Assembly: GCA_022824405.1 (NCBI GenBank)
Contig: JAJDZZ010000082.1
Span: forward strand, 1 to 44,853
Direction of reading: 5' to 3'
Length of the DNA: 44,853 nucleotides
Source of the DNA: Opitutales bacterium
GTDB lineage: Bacteria; Verrucomicrobiota; Verrucomicrobiia; Opitutales; UBA2995
Shown here: piece after piece, positions 1-44,853 of the stretch
Layout of the letters: the number at the start of each line of letters is the position of its first letter
Position numbering within the stretch: the first letter of the stretch is position 1
The notes under the pieces: model-generated
What the model was told of the DNA's origin: nothing
The model's input: only the letters and a program-made list of their open reading frames with translations
The model's database searches: none
Translations under genes and position numbers: made by a program

Positions 1-418
1 AGTGCTTCTTCCGAGCGTCTCCAGTAGCCACCCGCGGGTTAGCACAATCACCCACGAGTTGCTTCTAATGCTTCCGAACGCTGCCATGCTTAACAAGTTT
101 TATCAGATTCGGATTGAACGCATACCATCACAAAAGGCGCAAAGAAGGATTTAACGGAGGGCGGGTTTTCCAACCCGCCTATTTAAGAAAATGGGTGACC
201 CGCCTCCCGGCGTGGCGGACTGGAAAGTCCGCCCTCCGTTACAAATCTGTGCTCATCTGCGTAATCGGCGGTTTATCTCCTTCATCCTAATTCCTCCTCT
301 TGGCGCTTCTTTGCGAGCTTGGCGAGAGTCCATTTCGATCAGGATCACGATCACGATTAATTAGCCTCTGTGCTTAATCCCCTCTCAGCATCTCTTTTCA
401 ATTCCTCATTCCTAATTC
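1..418. repeat. Gene-free stretch with paired-hairpin element and repeat string
   Basis: No gene is seen. Positions 1-120 hold no pattern I recognise. Positions 151-241 form an element of two 8-bp hairpins (listed separately). From about 241 to 420 come short repeat words also found elsewhere in the window: an ATCTGTGCTCATCTGCG word, TTGGCGAGAGTC, GATCACG units at 336-360, and CCTAATTCCTAATT, which runs into the queF stop codon. Confidence 0.8.
151..241. repeat. Paired-hairpin repeat element, copy 1
   Basis: Two perfect 8-bp hairpins: 160-179 (GGCGGGTT, loop TTCC, AACCCGCC) and 214-233 (GGCGGACT, loop GGAA, AGTCCGCC). The outer ends are also inverted, TAACGGAGGG at the left and CCCTCCGTTA at the right. 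The middle contains GACCCGCCT and CGGCGTGG. A second copy at 3431-3531 keeps the frame and loops but has different stem bases. Layout resembles bacterial REP doublets (BIMEs). Confidence 0.8.
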
Positions 419-769
419 CTAATTGCCCGTCCGCGGGCTCTTGTATTCCGCGGTGATGTGGGAATGAATGCCCCCTCTACCCTTCCAGATGGTCTCGACT
501 TTCATCCGGCGGGGAGCGCAGCATTGGACCAGGTCGTCGAGAATTTTGTTGGTGAGAGCTTCGTAGTAAATGCCTTGGTTGCGGTATCCCTGCAAATACT
601 CCTTGTAGGATTTCAGCTCGATACACCGGGCATCGGCCACGTAGGTGAGCACGATGCTTCCAAAATCCGGATGCCCCGTGACGGGGCAGACCGAGGTAAA
701 CTCCTCGGCCACGTGGCGGATTTCATAATCTCTCTCCGGGTTGGGATTTTCAAACAGGTCGATTGCCAT
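419..769 (-). CDS. queF: NADPH-dependent 7-cyano-7-deazaguanine reductase QueF
   Basis: Reduces preQ0 to preQ1 in the queuosine pathway, in the cytoplasm. The protein has the short type I QueF layout. EFTSVCP carries the nucleophilic cysteine, the downstream GHPDF carries the conserved aspartate, and ELKSYKEYL matches the QueF NADPH-binding signature. The start is the ATG at 769, giving 116 residues; a TTG at 805 would add 12 residues but has no usable ribosome-binding site. The last codons lie inside a repeat: the end of the gene forms a GCCCG-CGGA-CGGGC hairpin and the stop TAG comes from the AATTAGG repeat that follows, so the C-terminus has probably been rewritten by a repeat. It is downstream of tgt and queA on the same strand, separated from queA by about 375 bp of repeats, so it may be transcribed separately. 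Confidence 0.93.
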   Translation of the reverse strand: MAIDLFENPNPERDYEIRHVAEEFTSVCPVTGHPDFGSIVLTYVADARCIELKSYKEYLQGYRNQGIYYEALTNKILDDLVQCCAPRRMKVETIWKGRGGIHSHITAEYKSPRTGN

Positions 770-3300: not shown

Positions 3301-3668
3301 GGAAATGAAATCTCGCTATGGCGAGATGGCACAAAGGCGCCTAGCGGCGCCCAAAGGCGCGGAGAGAGGAGAGGGATCTCGCAAAGATCGCAAAGCAACG
3401 CAAAGTGATCCGGCTTCGCCGGAACAGGATTTAACGGAGGGGGGACATTCCTGTCCCCCGCCATGTTTTGCGAGAGGGGGACCCGCCTTCGCCAGAGGTC
3501 TTCGGCGTGGTAGGGGACAGGAATATCCCTCCTCTGTTCTTGGCGAGAGGCTTTTCTTTATTTCGATCAAGATCACGATTATTCGTGGTTCATCTTTCTC
3601 CCAATTCATAATTCCTAATTCCTAATTCCTAATTCCTAATTCCTAATTGGTGCCATCGGCGCCTTTTG
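3301..3668. repeat. Repeat-filled gap between the ferredoxin gene and tgt
   Basis: No gene is seen in 368 bp. In order it holds the AAATCTCGC-TAT-GCGAGAT palindrome (3306-3324), GGCGCC hairpins (3338-3356), a CCGGCTTCGCCGG hairpin near 3411-3424, paired-hairpin element copy 2 (3431-3531), GATCACG (3563-3580), five CCTAATT units (3610-3649), and a GGTGCC-ATC-GGCGCC hairpin (3649-3664) just after the ferredoxin stop in its direction of reading. Confidence 0.75.
3431..3531. repeat. Paired-hairpin repeat element, copy 2
   Basis: The first hairpin (3440-3459) is GGGGGACA, loop TTCC, TGTCCCCC. The second (3512-3531) is AGGGGACA, loop GGAA, then TATCCCTC, imperfectly paired. The left edge TTTAACGGAGGG and the inner words GACCCGCCT and CGGCGTGG match copy 1 at 151-241, while the stem bases differ and still pair. 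Confidence 0.75.
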
Positions 3669-3893
3669 CTATCCTTCAATACGGATTATGTTTACCGGGC
3701 AGCTTTTTTCCGCTCTACGGAGCGTCTCGGCGTCGTCTTCCCAACCCTCGCCAAACTGTAAATTGTCTTTTACCCGTAATACGTAGCGCAGTTGGGCCAG
3801 GCCTTCATCATTCATATGCCAGTAATCCGGAGCCACCTCGCAACAGAGGTCGCACCCGATACATTCCCGGTGTTTATGGATAATGTGCAGCAT
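3669..3893 (-). CDS. Single-cluster [4Fe-4S] ferredoxin
   Basis: A 74-residue electron carrier. Cysteines 11, 14 and 17 form CxxCxxC (ECIGCDLCC) and Cys65 is followed by proline (SCPVNII), the pattern of small one-cluster ferredoxins; an extra Cys18 is present. It has no signal peptide, so it is cytoplasmic. It follows the U32-family gene on the same strand with a 38-bp gap, so it may supply electrons to that enzyme or to another enzyme of the cluster; this link is inferred from position only. A hairpin followed by AATTAGG repeats begins a few bases after the stop codon and may act as a 3' end. Confidence 0.85.
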   Translation of the reverse strand: MLHIIHKHRECIGCDLCCEVAPDYWHMNDEGLAQLRYVLRVKDNLQFGEGWEDDAETLRRAEKSCPVNIIRIEG

Positions 3894-5176: not shown

Positions 5177-5492
5177 CCGGATTCGGAGAGAAGAGGAAAA
5201 ACCACAGAGGACACAGAGAGAGGAGCGCGCTGAGGCGCGCCAATTAGGAATTAGGAATTGAGAAAGAGGTTAACCACGGATTACACGGATAGGCACGGAT
5301 TTAAATGAGGAATCGGGAGGAGACCTTGGCGATCTTGGGGATCTTGGCGAGAGTCAATTTCTTCACCCTCATTCGATCACGATCACGATCAGGATCACGA
5401 TTATTGTCAGCTTTATCTTCCTTCTTGCTTCCTCCTCTGTGTCCTCTGGGTTCTCTGTGGTTATTCTCTCCTAATCGGTGGTTTAGACTTTC
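5177..5492. repeat. Repeat string upstream of the U32 gene
   Basis: No gene is seen. It contains a GCGCGC-TGAG-GCGCGC hairpin followed by CAATTAGGAATTAGG (5228-5255), an ACCACGGATTACACGGAT word, TTGGCGAGAGTC (5344-5355), four GATCACG/GATCAGG units (5373-5402), and the CTCTGTGTCCTCTGGGTTCTCTGTGG word. The word order is the same as at 960-1145, 6460-6590 and 12900-13075. Confidence 0.75.
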
Positions 5493-6459: not shown

Positions 6460-6573
6460 TTTTCTTATCGGTCTTGGCGATCTTGGCGAGAGTCCCTTCT
6501 ATATTCGATCACGATTAATTTCAGGATCTTCATCCTTTCTCCCTCTCTCTGTGGTCTCTGTGGTTAATCTCTC

Positions 6574-8457
6574 CTAATTTTTAATTGGCGCCCTTTGGAG
6601 GCGGGTCCGTAATTGGATGATGAGTCCGGACCCAATGGCGAAGACCGCCTCTCCGACACAGAAATAATAAAGGTTGGTGGCAACTCCGTCGTCGAAGCCG
6701 TAACTGTGCAGCCCCACCTGCAACAGGTTGACACCAAACCAGGCCAGGGCCACGGAGATGGGTGTCAATGCGAGGGCCACGGAAAAACCGAGTTCCTTGA
6801 GCCGGCCGGCCAAGCGCCCGTGAATGACGATGAGCAACCAGAGAACGATTAAGAGGGCGCCGTTTTCCTTGGGGTCCCATCCCCAAAAACGCCCCCAGGA
6901 TTGGTCGCCCCAAATTCCTCCCAGAATGGTTCCGAAGGTGGTGAAAAAGACGGCCACCAGGCAAATTCCGTAGGATACCTTGAAAGCCTCTCTGGCCCAG
7001 CGTCTGCGCGCCGGGAAAATCAACCGCAGCAGGAGATACACGTGGGCCACCAGCCCCGCCGTCAAGGCAACCCCGTAGCCGATGGTGATGGTCAAGACGT
7101 GGGTGCCGAGCCAGAAGTTTGAATTGAGTACGGCCACCAGCATCTTCATGGTATCGCCTTCGGCCGAGTAGCTGAACCCGATGAAGTGCAGAGCGGTTCC
7201 GGCCACCGAACCCACGAGCAGCCCCAGGGTGTCGTGACGCACCGCTTCGAGGATGATCGATAACAAGACCAGGACCCAGCCCACAAAGACGATCGACTCG
7301 TAGAGGGTGGACACGGGCGGACGGCCCATGATATAAATTCTGAACAACAACCCGACCAGGTGGAGGGCAAAACCGACGATCAGACTGGCAAAGGAGAGAC
7401 GACCCACCCATTTGCTGGTAAAGACGTAGCTTACCAACAGCAACAGGAAGGCCAGGATGTAGAACACGATGCTGTTTCGGAAAAAGTTGGCTTTGTTATA
7501 GAACAACTCACCCTTCAATTTTACATTGGCATTAACAGCATCCACCAACGGGTCCACTTCCTGGGAAACCTGGGCCAGTCCGTCGGCATAAAAGGCGGCA
7601 ACAATGGTTTCCAATTCCCGCAACCGGTCCAACTGCCACGGGGTCAGTTGACGTCCGTCCAATAATTCCCAGGGCGCAAACCAGGTCGCCTCCTCCTGCT
7701 CGCCTTCCGGCATGACAATTTTCAGGATCTGGGAACTTCGATCGGCCAGTTTGACGTTCAACTGTTGAACCAGGTCGATCAAGGCGCTCTCCTTAGGGGA
7801 AATGGCATCCCCTTCCTGGCGGCCCCGCAGGCTCTCCAATTCGGTGGCCATCGCCCCGCGCACCTCCAGAAACTGCCGGTAGGTATAGCCCTTCCCCACT
7901 TCAAAACCAATGGCTTCGGCCAACTCGGGGTTGGATACGCTAATGTCCGGTATCAGCCCCGTTAGAGACCGGCTCAAGGCAAGGTAGCGCAACGCTTTCA
8001 GGTAAAGGGTGACCAATTGCCCTTCCGCCCGCGTCCGTTCCCCCTCCCCTTTTTCCACCAGTTTGTTGAGGGATTCCTGGCGCTCCCTTATGGCTTGGCT
8101 CAGTTCTGCAAACGAATAACGGGACTCCGGGTCCAAACCCAGGCCCAATCCCAGGATGGCTTCCTTTTCCCGCACCTTGAAAACCTTTCGCTGGTAGGCG
8201 GCCTGCGGGGCTATCATCAATTCCAACAACCAGTCGATGGCCTTTTGCCGGTCGATGGTCGATTTGGAATGGTAGAGTAAAAGTTGGGACCGGGCAAAGG
8301 TGTCCAGAGGTTTGAGCCTTCCCTGATCCTGGACGATCAGTTTCTGGAAGGCGCCGGCCCGCACCGGGGATTCGTAGGCTTCCCCTCCCAGAACCGCCCC
8401 CCAACCCATGAGGAAAACCAGGGAGATAAACAGGCGTTGAATGGAGAGCGGTTTCAT
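6574..8457 (-). CDS. ccsA: Cytochrome c biogenesis protein CcsA/ResC-like (system II)
   Basis: Membrane half of the system II haem-export and cytochrome c assembly complex. The 627-residue protein has an N-terminal membrane segment, a long periplasmic region (about 30-320), then about eight membrane segments with the tryptophan-rich haem-handling motif GDQSWGRFWGWDPKEN near residue 515 and conserved histidines in the helices around it. This is the long form in which a soluble domain precedes the CcsA part. The start is the ATG at 8457, which overlaps the ResB stop as ATGA, implying translational coupling. The final residues APIKN and the stop are encoded by the GGCGCCAATTA repeat, so the 3' end has been altered by a repeat. 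Confidence 0.92.
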   Translation of the reverse strand: MKPLSIQRLFISLVFLMGWGAVLGGEAYESPVRAGAFQKLIVQDQGRLKPLDTFARSQLLLYHSKSTIDRQKAIDWLLELMIAPQAAYQRKVFKVREKEAILGLGLGLDPESRYSFAELSQAIRERQESLNKLVEKGEGERTRAEGQLVTLYLKALRYLALSRSLTGLIPDISVSNPELAEAIGFEVGKGYTYRQFLEVRGAMATELESLRGRQEGDAISPKESALIDLVQQLNVKLADRSSQILKIVMPEGEQEEATWFAPWELLDGRQLTPWQLDRLRELETIVAAFYADGLAQVSQEVDPLVDAVNANVKLKGELFYNKANFFRNSIVFYILAFLLLLVSYVFTSKWVGRLSFASLIVGFALHLVGLLFRIYIMGRPPVSTLYESIVFVGWVLVLLSIILEAVRHDTLGLLVGSVAGTALHFIGFSYSAEGDTMKMLVAVLNSNFWLGTHVLTITIGYGVALTAGLVAHVYLLLRLIFPARRRWAREAFKVSYGICLVAVFFTTFGTILGGIWGDQSWGRFWGWDPKENGALLIVLWLLIVIHGRLAGRLKELGFSVALALTPISVALAWFGVNLLQVGLHSYGFDDGVATNLYYFCVGEAVFAIGSGLIIQLRTRLQRAPIKN

Positions 8458-10181: not shown

Positions 10182-10400
10182 GGGGAGAGAAAAGGCACAG
10201 AGTTTGGAAATGGGAAATGGACTCTCGCAAAGTTAATTGGAATTTCAAAGAAAATCTTGGCGGTCTTAGCGTGCTTGGCGAGAGGATAAGGCGCCCAAAG
10301 GCGCCAATCAGGAATTAGGATTTAGGAATTGAGAATGAGGAATATTGTGTTTTTTGTGCCTTCTAATCATAATCCGCGGTCATATCCAGCATCCAGAATC
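10182..10400. repeat. Divergent intergenic region with GGCGCC hairpin
   Basis: This gap separates two divergent genes. It holds CTTGGCGAGAGG, a GGCGCCCAAAGGCGCC hairpin (10291-10306) followed by AATCAGGAATTAGG (10307-10320). I could not pick a convincing promoter. Confidence 0.55.
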
Positions 10401-12585: not shown

Positions 12586-13082
12586 GCACAAAGGCACAGA
12601 GGCACAAAGGCACGGAGGCACAAAGGGGGGGAGAGGCGCGCTGGGACGCGCCAATTAGGAATTAGGAATGAGGAATGAGGAATTGGGGAGAAGGGAGTGG
12701 TGGAATGATGGAAGGTTGGAGTAGTGGAGTGAGGAATCGCAGATGGGGCAGATAAGCGCAGATTTTTTTGCGAAGTTAAGCCGTACATTTCAGAGGCGGG
12801 AAAATTGCGGGTCCAGCCATAGATTTTTGTCACCAAGTCGATTCCCTTTTGCTAAACGATCAAATCTCGATAGGTTCTGATCCCGCCCACTTTGTGCCTT
12901 TTCTTAGCGTTCTTGGCGTGCTTTGCGAGAGTTAATTCTTCACCATCAATAGACCACGATAATGATTAATTTTCAGCCTTCAGCTTTCTTCCTTTTCCCT
13001 CCTCTCTGTTTCCTCTGTGTTCTCTGTGGTTAATTTCTTCTAATTCCTAATTCTTCATTGGCGCCATTGGCGCCTATAATCC
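12586..13082. repeat. Repeat-filled region with decayed IVS gene
   Basis: This gap of about 500 bp has no intact gene. It holds five GCACAAAGG-type octamers (12586-12625), a GGCGCG-CTGGGA-CGCGCC hairpin followed by AATTAGGAATTAGG (12633-12669), an ATCTGCG-type word, the truncated IVS gene (12768-12890), one TTTGTGCC unit (12891-12898), then the standard string: GCGAGAGTT, CACGATAATGATTA, CAGCCTTCAGC, CTCTGTGTTCTCTGTGGTTA, CCTAATTC and a GGCGCC-ATT-GGCGCC hairpin (13059-13073). Confidence 0.75.
12768..12890 (-). pseudogene. Truncated four-helix bundle (IVS) gene, copy B
   Basis: Reading from the GTG at 12890, the sequence follows the intact IVS gene at 6024-6395 closely for about 120 bp. The tryptophan codon in LIVWQ is TAG, an in-frame stop. 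The match ends after GGCTTAACTTC at about 12770 and continues directly into a repeat word (ATCTGCGCTTATCTGCCC). The start is joined to a single TTTGTGCC unit. It is therefore a dead copy, cut off about one third of the way through. Confidence 0.85.
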
Positions 13083-21759: not shown

Positions 21760-21781
21760 GGCGCGCGGAGGCGCGCCAATC
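21760..21781 (+). terminator. GC-rich hairpin at the end of the TonB receptor gene
   Basis: GGCGCGC and GCGCGCC pair around GGAG, 1-2 bases after the TGA stop, followed by CAATCGG. There is no T run, so it is not a classical intrinsic terminator. The same kind of hairpin sits at the stop of the 24314 oxidoreductase and in several other places. Confidence 0.4.
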
Positions 21782-21942
21782 GGAAATTGGGAAAGTTTCG
21801 ATTTGGGAGTTGGCGGGTGGAGAAATGGACTCTCGCAAAGCTCGCCAAGAGCGCAAAGATGGGAGCGAGAATAACCTCAGAGGTCTCATCCCGCTTCGCC
21901 TGAAGCAGGCTACGGCAGGACAGAGGAGGGAAAAAGGGCCTC

Positions 21943-22462: not shown

Positions 22463-22820
<358 letters not shown>

Positions 22821-23852: not shown

Positions 23853-24313
23853 GATACGGGCTTGGCTCATAAGAGGACTGAAGCGTATGATTGTTCCCGA
23901 CATAATGTCACGACAACTCGGGAAAATCCATTAAATGGCTGGCCTGAGGCGCGCCGGAGCGCGCCAATCAGGAATTAAAAGGCTGAAAAGGGAGAGGTTG
24001 AAAGAGGAAGGAAGAAGGGGCCGGGATCAATCATGATCGTGATCGAAAGAAAGGGTACTTTGGAAATGATTTGTGGAACCCCGTTGGGGTTCGTTATTTA
24101 TTACCCATTCCTACCCAGCGTGCGCTACGCGACACTGGGCTTTGGAGTTTAACGCCGTTGGCGTAGAAGAAAGGGGCGCCCAAGGGCGCATCTTAGCGAT
24201 CTTTGCGAGCTTTGCGAGAGGCAAAGGCGCGCTGAGGTGGGCCAATCAGGAATGAGGAATGTTTCGATTTGGGAGTTGACGGGGGAGGAGGCATTAATTT
24301 TCAACATGAGGAC
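23853..24313. repeat. Repeat region between the TlpA-like gene and the oxidoreductase gene
   Basis: About 460 bp without a gene. It contains a GGCGCGC-CGGA-GCGCGCC hairpin with AATCAGGAATT (23947-23975), an AGGCTGAAAAGGG word, an inverted GATCGTGATCG word (24033-24043), the full three-hairpin element (24072-24170), GGCGCCC, GCGATCTTTGCGAG and a TCAGGAATGAGG word. The ORF through 24073-24255 is a translation of the three-hairpin element. Confidence 0.7.
24072..24170 (+). repeat. Three-hairpin repeat element, copy 1
   Basis: Three successive hairpins: GGAACCCCGTTGGGGTTC (24075-24092), CCCAGCGTGCGCTACGCGAC-ACTGGG (24114-24139, imperfect), and AACGCCGTTGGCGT (24151-24164). A reverse-orientation copy lies at 38143-38245, and a copy lacking the first hairpin at 17665-17733. 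I recall similar hairpin words in unrelated bacterial genomes, but this is from memory and was not checked. Confidence 0.75.
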
Positions 24314-25195: not shown

Positions 25196-25213
25196 GGCGC
25201 GCCGGGGCGCGCC
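25196..25213 (+). terminator. GC-rich hairpin at the end of the dehydrogenase gene
   Basis: GGCGCGC and GCGCGCC pair around CGGG directly after the TAA stop, followed by CAATTAGGAATTAGGAATTAGG. No T run follows. It is in the same place and of the same build as the one after the TonB receptor 1 gene. Confidence 0.4.
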
Positions 25214-25538
25214 AATTAGGAATTAGGAATTAGGAATGTTTCGATTTGGGAGTTGGCGGGTGGAGGAAAGGCCTCATTCGATCACGATCACGATTATCCG
25301 TGCTCATCCGTGTGATCCGTGGTTCATCTTTCTCCCAATTCCTAATTCCTAATTCTTAATTCCTAATTGGCGCCATCGGCGCCTCTTAGCGGTCTTTGCG
25401 AGCTTTGCGAGAGTCCTTCTCTATTGCCAAACGATCATATCTCGATATCTTCTGACCCCGCTCACTTTGTGCCTTTGTGCCTTTGTGCCTTTGTGCCTTT
25501 GTGCCTTTGTGCCTTTGTGCCTTTGTGCCTTTTCGAGT
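25214..25538. repeat. Repeat string containing IVS gene remnant
   Basis: No intact gene. AATTAGG units (25215-25235), GATCACG units (25277-25297), ATCCGTGTGATCCGTGGTT (25303-25322), CCTAATT units (25338-25370), a GGCGCC-ATC-GGCGCC hairpin (25370-25384), GCGAGAGTCC, the IVS remnant (25425-25465) and eight TTTGTGCC octamers (25466-25529) that end about 10 bp from the next gene's stop codon. Confidence 0.75.
25425..25465 (-). pseudogene. IVS gene remnant, copy C
   Basis: Only the first 14 codons of the four-helix-bundle gene remain, reading MSGVRRYRDMIVWQ from the GTG at 25465, followed by TAG and then the GAGAAGGACTCTCGC repeat word. The start is joined to eight TTTGTGCC units (25466-25529), the same number and spacing as at the intact copy (6396-6459). 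There is no matching left array. Confidence 0.8.
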
Positions 25539-37329: not shown

Positions 37330-37555
37330 TGTCCATCCACCAATGCAAAAATCTTCCACCGGCGATTCTCCACCTTAAACGCGGAAGAAGGCGCCATCGG
37401 CGCCTCTTAGCCTTCTTGGCGTGCTTTGCGAGAGTCAATTTCCGGATGCTGGGTTATAATCCATGGTTCGTCTTTCTCCCCATTCCCCATTCCTCATTCC
37501 TAATTCCTAATTCTTAATTGGCGCCCCCGGCGCCTCTGTGCCCTCTCTTAATTCA
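37330..37555. repeat. Repeats between the phosphatase and haem-binding genes
   Basis: GGCGCC-ATC-GGCGCC (37390-37404), TTGGCGTGCTTTGCGAGAGTC (split by a CTT), CCTAATTC units and a GGCGCC-CCC-GGCGCC hairpin (37519-37533). The last hairpin lies about 20 bp beyond the haem-binding gene's stop in its direction of reading. Confidence 0.6.
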
Positions 37556-37990: not shown

Positions 37991-38337
37991 GCTTTCCGGG
38001 GGAGAGGTTTTTTGAATGGCAGGATGTTAATAGAGATTGAAATCCTCTAATCGCAGCCAGGAAATTTCCACATTATTTTCTTATGGAATGTACTCTCGCA
38101 AAGCTCGCCAAGACCGCTAAGAGGCGCTCCTGGGCGCCCCATTCTACTAACGCCAACGGCGTTGAACTCCAAAGCCCAGTGTCGCGTAGCGCACGCTGGG
38201 TTACCGATCACCCATATGACCGAACCCCAACGGGGTTCCACAAAAGGCATGCCCTCGGTACGCCTCTTAGCGGTCTTGGCGAGCTTTGCGAGAGTACATT
38301 CTATTTTCGATCACGATCGTAAGAAATCCTCTAAACT
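37991..38337. repeat. Repeat region with three-hairpin element, copy 2
   Basis: About 350 bp without a gene. CTCTCGCAAAGCTCGCCAAG (38093-38112), GGCGC words, the reversed three-hairpin element (38143-38245), TTAGCGGTCTTGGCGAG, and CGATCACGATCG (38308-38320). The ORF 38047-38250 on the minus strand is a translation of the element. Confidence 0.7.
38143..38245 (-). repeat. Three-hairpin repeat element, copy 2
   Basis: Reverse-orientation copy of 24072-24170. It reads ACGCCAACGGCGT, then CCCAGTGTCGCGTAGCGCAC-GCTGGG, then GAACCCCAACGGGGTTCC. All three hairpins are kept. Confidence 0.75.
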
Positions 38338-42342: not shown

Positions 42343-42611
42343 AACCACAGATTTCACGGATGGGCACGGATTTAAAAAAACAACGCTTCGCTTGATGCCT
42401 TCCGCCTACGCCCAAGACTACGGCATGACAGGACGGCAACAGGATGGCACTGCGTGCCAACAGGAAAAAAATCAAAAAAATCCTGTTCGCGAAGCGGTCC
42501 TGTTCCGGCAAAGCCGGATCAAGCGACTGAAAGGCGCGTTGTTCAACTCCTCCCTTTGCACTGCTTGGCGAGCTTTGCCAATTGCGTGACTTGTCCGCTT
42601 TGCGAGAATCG
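42343..42611 (+). repeat. Left direct repeat flanking the HicAB-like pair
   Basis: About 269 bp that match 43405-43643 in the same order with small differences, from AACCACAGATTTCACGGATG through CAACGCTTCGCTTGATGCC, GGCACTGCGTGCC, GTTCCGGCAAAGCCGGA, CGTTGTTCAACT and GCGTGACTTGTCCGCTT. The left copy has a 30-bp stretch (near 42403-42433) that the right one lacks. Confidence 0.8.
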
Positions 42612-42670
42612 TTTCCTCAATGCTCGTGCGGGGTTTGAAGCAGATTCGCAGGTGAAGCTGGGTCGCCCAG

Positions 42671-43283: not shown

Positions 43284-43797
43284 AGTCTTCCAATTCTCCT
43301 TTTTCCCCATGGGGACAAATCACTCCCCCTTTGCCCCGATGGAACCGTAAAATCCTGTAATCAGTCAATGGAATTGCGGAGTCTCTTCCTCGATGACGGA
43401 GGGTAACCACGGATTTCATGGATGGGCACGGATTTAAAATAAAACAACGCTTCGCTTGATGCCTACGGCAACAGGATGGCACTGCGTGCCAACAGGAAAA
43501 CAAATCAAAAAAATCCTGTTCGCAAAACGATCCTGTTCCGGCAAAGCCGGACCAAGCGACTGAAAGGAGCGTTGTTCAACTTCTTCCTCTGCGCTGCTTG
43601 GCGTGCTTGGCCAATTGCGTGACTTGTCCGCTTGGCGAGAGTCAATTCCCTTTTCCGTAAGGATGCGGAATCGATATCGATATCTTGGTGCCGACTTGGT
43701 GCCATCTCGCCTCAGCAAAATCCCATTCCTAATTCCTCATTCCTAATTCCTAATTGGCGCCTCTGGGCGCCCCCTCCCCATGCGGCCGGTTGGGAAT
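43284..43797. repeat. Repeat region with right flank of the HicAB-like pair
   Basis: About 510 bp. A purine/pyrimidine-rich lead (43284-43404), the right direct repeat (43405-43643), TTCCCTTTTCCG, an interrupted ATCTCGCC word (43704-43711), CCTAATTCC units (43726-43757), and a GGCGCC-TCTG-GGCGCC hairpin (43756-43771) 23 bp beyond the RAYT stop codon in its direction of reading. Confidence 0.7.
43405..43643 (+). repeat. Right direct repeat flanking the HicAB-like pair
   Basis: About 239 bp matching 42343-42611. Together the two copies enclose about 790 bp with the gene pair. Recombination between them would delete the pair. Confidence 0.8.
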
Positions 43798-44766
43798 TCA
43801 GGAGAAAATTCCTTTTCTCAAATCGCGCATCACCATCAACCCCGAATCCTTCAGGCCCAGCATGGGCCGCGCCCCCGAAGTCCGACGTTTCCCAAATAGA
43901 CCGCGATGCGTCTCGAATATCCCGTTCACGTAATCCTTCGAGCCGAGAACCATGCCATCGGTAAAATAACGTACCCGCAGCCTCAACACCTGTCCCAGCG
44001 GCAAGGTTCCATCAGCTTCCAATACCTTTCTGACCGCCTCGCGGTCCATCGCTTTCTGGCCTTCCCGCGATGTCGTCGCTCCCATCAGGAACAGAATCTT
44101 GCGATACTCCGACAAGGCGGCCTTCCCAGCCTTCATGGCAAGCGCACGACACAGCCCACTTCGCGCTTCGATGTTCCCGGCCACCGCCTCGGAGTAGCCG
44201 CAGTAACGATAGTCCTTGGGATCCTCCACCAGGCTCGCCCGCACCGGGTTCAAGTCTATGTAAGCGGCCACCGCACCCAAACAACTCGCCGTATCCTCGA
44301 TCAGCACGCTCTTGAACCGCTCCGCCCACAAGGTCCCGTAACGCCGGTGTGTACGGTTATACCAGATGCTGAAGCGTTGCTTCAACTCTTTCATATACAA
44401 CGATATATCCCCCATCCGCGCCAGGAGCCTCTCCCGTTCCGCCTGCGCTTGATCCCCTCCCTTTTTAAGGATGCCCTCCAAGGTTTCCACCCGCCCCTTT
44501 TGCCGCCCGTACAATTCGCAAAACCGGGCCAATAATTCCGTGTCATCGACTTCCTGATTTTCCGGCACCCGCACCAGGACGTGGAAGTGGTTGGTCATGA
44601 TGCAATAGGTCAGAATTTCCACCCCGCAGAAACGGGCCATGTACCACATCTGCTTGCGCAACACTTCCTTAGCCCGATTATCCAACAGCATCGCGCCACC
44701 CACCACGCGCGTCACGCAGTGATACACCGCACTTTGCCCCTTCACCTTCAACCTGGACGTTCTCAT
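43798..44766 (-). CDS. REP-associated tyrosine transposase (RAYT, Y1/HUH)
   Basis: A 322-residue single-strand DNA transposase-like protein of the IS200/RAYT group. The HUH motif is His60-Phe-His62 in LTYCIMTNHFHVLV, the start is QSAVYHCVTRVVGG, and the third block is YMKELKQRFSIWYNRTHRRYGTLWAERFKS, which holds the expected catalytic tyrosine (Tyr of WYN is a candidate). AAYIDLNPVRASLVEDPKDYRYCGYSE is a family landmark. In this family the protein cuts and joins at REP hairpins. GTAG REPs occur at 41166 and 42253. The start is taken at 44766, and a longer in-frame start at 44835 is possible. It lacks terminal inverted repeats, as is usual for RAYTs. Confidence 0.93.
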   Translation of the reverse strand: MRTSRLKVKGQSAVYHCVTRVVGGAMLLDNRAKEVLRKQMWYMARFCGVEILTYCIMTNHFHVLVRVPENQEVDDTELLARFCELYGRQKGRVETLEGILKKGGDQAQAERERLLARMGDISLYMKELKQRFSIWYNRTHRRYGTLWAERFKSVLIEDTASCLGAVAAYIDLNPVRASLVEDPKDYRYCGYSEAVAGNIEARSGLCRALAMKAGKAALSEYRKILFLMGATTSREGQKAMDREAVRKVLEADGTLPLGQVLRLRVRYFTDGMVLGSKDYVNGIFETHRGLFGKRRTSGARPMLGLKDSGLMVMRDLRKGIFS

Positions 44767-44853
44767 ACCCCCCACCCTGCCCATTCCTAATCCCCTGTCA
44801 ACAAATTTTAGCCTGTCCCTTTTAATCTCCCCCATGGGTGTCCACCTTTGATC

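Follow-up and report, generated by a model that had tools for sequence, protein, structure and literature searches.

H7, a hairpin-heptamer repeat of one Opitutia genus, follows an inward polarity rule in intergenic mosaics and is probably an arm of short non-autonomous mobile elements

The window analysed here is one entire contig of 44,853 nucleotides (JAJDZZ010000082.1) from an Opitutales bacterium, and the spacers between its genes carry copies of a short repeat, termed H7. The repeat consists of a GC hairpin with the foot A-GGCGC and a loop of mostly 2-4 bases, followed immediately by tandem heptamers AATTAGG or AATGAGG. An H7 arm is sharply bounded on its outer side, at the tip formed by A plus the GC hairpin, and ragged on its inner side, where 2-6 heptamers stand in tandem. 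Copies at 21760..21791 (+; TGA directly before GGCGCGC) and 25196..25234 (+; TAA directly before GGCGCGCC) begin right after the stop codons (0 bp) of a TonB receptor gene and a dehydrogenase gene, respectively. The copy after the ferredoxin gene (ORF 3669-3893) lies 5 bp past the stop at 3600..3663 (-) and comprises GGCGCC-GAT-GGCACC plus up to seven heptamers, while others are found 21 bp past the stop of a haem-binding gene (37478..37534, -) and 26 bp past that of a RAYT/Y1 transposase gene (43721..43771, -), the latter directed away from the gene. The original prediction had placed a hairpin at or near the stop codons of seven named genes; these five bear it out, and at queF and ccsA the heptamers themselves contain the stop codon. 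At the queF 3' end (397..438, -) the array at 397-424 supplies the TAG stop at 419, and the apparent hairpin at 425-438, whose GCCCG/CGGGC stem had been taken for part of the element, corresponds in alignment to normal queF coding sequence of the sister species, a congener (AAACCACTGATCGGC); therefore, only the heptamers belong to the element there. At ccsA, a degenerate copy (6573..6603, -) has a broken stem, and its second heptamer holds the TAG stop (6576-6574).

Copies away from gene ends had also been noted and are present. One lies at 5224..5262 (+) in a spacer between two minus-strand genes and is not at a stop codon, and divergent spacers contain others at 10290..10333 (+), 12635..12687 (+) and 23948..23979 (+). 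In the divergent spacer 12586-13082, the copy at 12635..12687 forms the left inward-facing arm, behind a GGCACAAA array, and a copy at 13039..13074 (-) forms the right one; likewise, the dehydrogenase copy is the left arm of spacer 25196-25538, with the right inward-facing arm at 25334..25383 (-), then a ACACGGAT module. A degenerate copy at 24226..24257 (+) has a mismatched stem. In the sister species, the orthologous spacers of the copies at 10290..10333 (L096) and 37478..37534 (L084) are without a copy. The window also holds an intact small inverted-arm element at 38086..38301, with 41-bp matched terminal arms GAATGTACTCTCGCAAAGCTCGCCAAGACCGCTAAGAGGCG (38086-38126 and, in reverse complement, 38261-38301), and this element was not found in the sister species' orthologous spacer. 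In addition, a 152-bp repeat occurs twice, at 89% identity, in the spacer behind the RAYT gene (42465-42616 and 43498-43649), and a similar stretch is present in L091.

H7 is present well beyond chance, and that part of the original prediction is confirmed. Exact matches to CAATYAGGAATKAGG number 138 in the 3.39-Mb, 92-contig genome, with none for the reversed pattern, and in the window CAATYAGGAATTAGG has 35 matches with up to three mismatches versus 2.25 expected. Hairpin-plus-heptamer copies number 184 in 988 kb of fetched stretches (reversed control, 8), a sample that was picked around copies and is weighted to repeat-rich regions. Both this genome and that of the second species, the congener, are metagenome-assembled. 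The hairpins are stable (-9 to -15 kcal/mol, z about -1.7 to -2.5), the conserved context is A-GGCGC...GCGCC-AATTAGG, and three main stem types are found: GGCGCC (80), GGCGCCC (31) and GGCGCGC (22). A link between stem type and replication strand or contig strand was rejected, the pattern being inconsistent. Rfam covariance models gave no match at any H7 copy in the window; only tmRNA and tRNA matched, the tmRNA gene lying at 22463-22820 in the spacer behind the TonB receptor, where it was treated as non-coding in spacer counts. A search of the accessible literature for the repeat strings returned none in a bacterial context, the sole match being one unrelated cardiac paper.

It had been proposed that structure rather than sequence is kept in the stems. 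For copies selected by their heptamers only, arms pair with their own partner in 721 of 876 cells versus a mean of 652 and a maximum of 676 with shuffled partners, so pairing does exceed the shuffles. Most of this excess comes from pair 6 (C-G in 78, G-C in 29) and is explained by the existence of stem subfamilies with either C-G or G-C at that position, whereas changes elsewhere in the stem are largely one-sided and uncompensated. The proposal is borne out only at the level of the three stem subfamilies, the stems not being freely variable, and the case for covariation is weak.

Enrichment at stop codons depends on the null chosen. With genes called by a simple, heuristic codon-usage method, spacer copies that overlap a stop or have an edge within 10 bp of one amount to 27.8% in this genome and 17.5% in the second species, versus 3.7% and 3.2%, respectively, under uniform placement; H7 tips fall between 1 bp inside and 10 bp past the stop in 21 of 165 (p = 1e-6) and 8 of 91 (p = 0.009) cases. 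The predicted enrichment accordingly stands against uniform placement in both species, but under a stricter null that makes the last 40 coding bases available as well it shrinks to a modest excess in this genome (p = 0.009) and disappears in the second species. Orientation is the stronger signal, as near-stop copies run hairpin-first in the gene's direction without exception (46:0 here and 11:0 in the second species). Some 60 copies near stops are co-oriented in this way; in about 23 of them the gene ends on a stop codon within the element, located in one of the first three heptamers or in the hairpin, and in 11 the stop sits at the hairpin foot (TGA before GGCGCC, TAA before GGCGC, or TA-GGCGCC). 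A 7-base unit with TAG or TGA moves the frame by one per unit, and three units therefore stop all frames. C-termini are altered relative to the congener: the end points differ between L181 and L148, and the tails are replaced between L185 and L156 and between L107 and L092, while L108 and L139 have the same site in both species. H7 is consequently a route by which genes gain new C-terminal ends, as the stretches sampled contain at least 20 genes that stop inside the repeat.

This co-orientation is one consequence of a wider rule: at both edges of a spacer, the tips point towards whichever gene is closer. Several short repeats make up these mosaic spacers, among them (GGCACAAA)n, ACCACAGAG-ACACAGAG-, ACCACGGAT-ACACGGAT-, CTCTCGCAAAG-, CTCGCCAAGGCGAGA and H7, and the coexisting arm families are H7, (GGCACAAA)n, ACACAGAG, ACACGGAT, CTCGCAAAG and CTCGCCAAGGCGAGA; several of these modules were defined by eye and later by pattern. 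In the left half of a spacer H7 and five other short repeats run to the right, and in the right half they run to the left, in every spacer class (tandem in either direction, convergent or divergent) and independently of gene direction. Counted per spacer, 83 are inward, 1 is outward and 4 are mixed in this genome (p = 9e-24), and 27, 0 and 4, respectively, in the second species, whereas the GTAG-type repetitive extragenic palindromes (REPs) of the same genome, used as a polarity control, gave 2 and 1 and show no such rule. Ordered pairs of different modules occur 218 times as +- and 6 times as -+, purine content changes sign across spacers in parallel with module polarity, and paired H7 arms are inward only (19:0 spacers here and 10:0 in the second species), with unmatched left and right copies. 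These statistics are independent of fine gene boundaries, and the rule also holds for modules that lack a hairpin. Near spacer middles, GATCACGATCACGAT hexamer repeats (5372-5409 and 25277-25302) have a polarity that is opposite or mixed relative to the other modules. Short intergenic repeats are usually catalogued family by family; here, several unrelated families share a single geometric rule, which is imposed by the borders of genes and not by their transcription. The origin of intergenic mosaics thereby becomes open to testing, since the rule carries a prediction about the way insertions arise, and any genome with these repeats allows a check. Cyanobacterial heptamer STRRs, together with small dispersed repeats, were reportedly described by Elhai in 2008 as tandem heptamers and tiny hairpin repeats forming intergenic mosaics; they resemble H7 in placing heptamer and hairpin mosaics between genes and differ from it in sequence and phylum, and they are not known to show inward polarity.

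The polarity rule bears directly on the suggestion that H7 is a terminator-like or mRNA 3'-end element, that is, a dedicated transcription terminator or stabiliser selected at gene ends, with a hairpin that halts the polymerase or blocks exonucleases. Hairpin stability and the strict co-orientation near stops are what such an element would display. However, the hairpin is followed by AATTAGG and not by a T run, the copies past stop codons between 20 and 40 kb of the window are missing from a terminator scan, and copies are usually missing at the orthologous gene end in the other species. Moreover, orientation is equally strict where there is no gene 3' end, in divergent spacers and upstream of genes, and in hairpin-less modules; it therefore cannot be due to transcription, and a terminator or stabiliser function is very unlikely.

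H7 is confined to one Opitutia genus, comprising this genome and the second species, which matches MAG 287ce. Among 53 related genomes, GCGCCAATTAGGAATKAGG is found in two, this one (119 copies) and the congener (112 copies), and in a scan of GTDB contigs the full element occurs only in Opitutia bacterium isolate 287ce. Loop types are species-specific (GGG and GAT here versus GTT and TGGG in the congener), which points to separate expansions. The two species retain a common gene order, with about 88-90% identity, but their spacers have had their contents replaced. L091, for example, has a 0.6-kb mosaic where L190 has 6 bp, and genes that abut in L079 are separated by a 365-bp mosaic in L106. 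The alternative offered in the original prediction, an insertion that favours gene ends, gains support from these orthologous spacers, which are occupied in one species and, in its relative, either empty or occupied by other repeats, with the apparent 3'-end preference explained as part of the wider inward-facing rule.

Such presence and absence at orthologous sites, seen here between two species, is a criterion for miniature inverted-repeat elements (MITEs), which are non-autonomous and intergenic, with inverted arms and a variable interior (reviewed in PMC10969869). H7 elements share all of these features; unlike MITEs, they gave no precise excision or target duplication in filled/empty pairs, no autonomous parent or partner and no matched terminal repeats. 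Probably, H7 represents one of several kinds of arm found in short inverted-arm elements (foldback, or REPIN- or MITE-like) that are non-autonomous and nest in spacers. Newer elements would insert between the arms of older ones, producing nested spacers, with the arms on the left reading rightward and those on the right leftward. H7 itself would be mobile, likely mobilised by a transposase acting in trans; nesting and later arm loss or recombination may have produced the polarity, and insertions at gene 3' ends may persist because the array offers a stop codon in every frame. In Drosophila, foldback elements have inverted arms of short tandem repeats of variable length, an arm design like that of H7 but by analogy only, as they are far larger and eukaryotic.

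Insertion between arms is observed in other families of the class, where the ACACGGAT repeat forms compact inverted pairs. Two inverted arms at short distance, as in REPINs, are thus found for the ACACGGAT arm in other genomes, where close pairs number 19 as +- and 4 as -+. The complete genome G163 has ten close ACACGGAT pairs as +- and none as -+; at six loci a second inverted pair lies inside the ACACGGAT arms, with an IS110-family gene also present in three of the six, and at a seventh (L228 345-1152) ACACGGAT arms spaced by about 0.8 kb enclose an IS200-like Y1 gene. Such interior insertion generates inward polarity naturally. In L219, L220 and L221 of the same genome, identical IS110-family genes lie within nested inverted repeats (CTGTCATCCTGAGCG..AGCGAAGGATCC) that are themselves within ACACGGAT arms. 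Two further candidates were rejected: the 1.4-kb units of G163 as an autonomous element, since they are IS110-family copies nested inside arms, and the presence of a Y1 transposase, which does not predict ACACGGAT arms in the class as a whole (p = 0.12).

Arm types on the left and right sides of spacers match no more often than by chance, and arms within one spacer are no more alike in sequence than random pairs. A single element per spacer with terminal inverted repeats was rejected on these grounds, and simple Russian-doll nesting is therefore an incomplete explanation. Either arms were often lost or exchanged after nesting, long palindromes being unstable in bacteria, or the sides were built independently, for example by repair synthesis, in which the 3' ends of a broken spacer are each extended by copying repeats with template switching, such that the two sides acquire inward repeats independently. 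Such synthesis would account both for the inward polarity and for a composition that is independent on the two sides, and it agrees with module ends that are sharp outside and ragged inside, with shared gene ends from which a different module starts in each species, and with a switch inside a shared hairpin half (L107 versus L092). By itself, however, it gives no reason for copying only one strand of each repeat; the genome has no reverse transcriptase match (RVT_1), for which an origin by reverse transcription was rejected; and the intact paired and nested elements in related families are what transposition predicts. Repair synthesis as such appears unlikely, although it is the chief competitor of nesting with loss or exchange of arms, which is preferred. 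More broadly, assembly of the spacers in this lineage by an undescribed process, such as 3'-end extension with template switching or obligate insertion at a palindrome centre, is a possibility to which we give a minority share of our confidence. If true, the process lays families of short tandem-repeat arms, with a fixed inward polarity, at each of the two bordering genes, which are thereby capped with portable stop codons for all frames.

The RAYT-type gene in the window raises one more explanation, namely that H7 copies are REP elements mobilised by this neighbour as in a REPtron system. REPs carry a GTAG or CGTC tetranucleotide tag at one end of the palindrome (PMC3733652), and REPINs and BIMEs are RAYT-linked inverted REP pairs (PMC3116915, PMC2817692). 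H7 resembles the latter in being short, palindromic and intergenic, in its hundreds of copies, putative inverted-pair unit and species-specific expansion and, probably, in its mobilisation in trans; a copy also lies 26 bp past the RAYT-type gene. Unlike REPINs and BIMEs, H7 lacks a GTAG- or CGTC-type tag, has a heptamer tail, is mixed with other arm types, keeps to the inward polarity of whole spacers and is not linked to a RAYT. Of the Y1/RAYT loci read, H7 adjoins two, at generic gene-end or upstream positions, and in the window it is directed away from the RAYT, like any gene-end copy. The genome has a separate family of GTAG-tagged REPs, GTAGGAGCGG, outside the polarity rule, and on C63 the RAYT-type gene is directly followed by two inverted GTAGGAGCGG REPs and not by H7. 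A left end of their own, AAAAAGGGACAGGCTAAAATTT, is common to the RAYT copies of C19 (where it was read as protein), C73 and C89. The REP reading was therefore rejected as highly improbable, and the proximity of H7 to RAYT is probably coincidental.

Several minor observations concern these transposase-like genes. The two inverted REPs (GTAGGAGCGG...) past the C63 stop, at L031 60-170, form a REPIN-like pair. RAYT-type genes on three contigs (window 44535-44853, L032 and L033) lie at contig ends and share the left end AATAAAAAGGGACAGGCTAAAATTT... while their flanks differ; the RAYT therefore behaves like a multi-copy mobile gene. TIRYT elements, in which TIR repeats are linked to RAYT-like genes (PMC3733652), also invite comparison: their repeats, like H7, are inverted, abundant and without relation to GTAG REPs, and they occur as dimers or groups, some of them being self-complementary, with the difference that no Y1 transposase gene was found between H7 arms here. 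Only three genes in the fetched stretches are flanked by inward arms, and none encodes a transposase. Finally, in L034 (1400-1600, on C22), the 3' end of a Y1 transposase gene is followed by long inverted repeats, AAAAGGGGTCAAACGTAGAAAATAG, and this arrangement may represent a TIRYT element.
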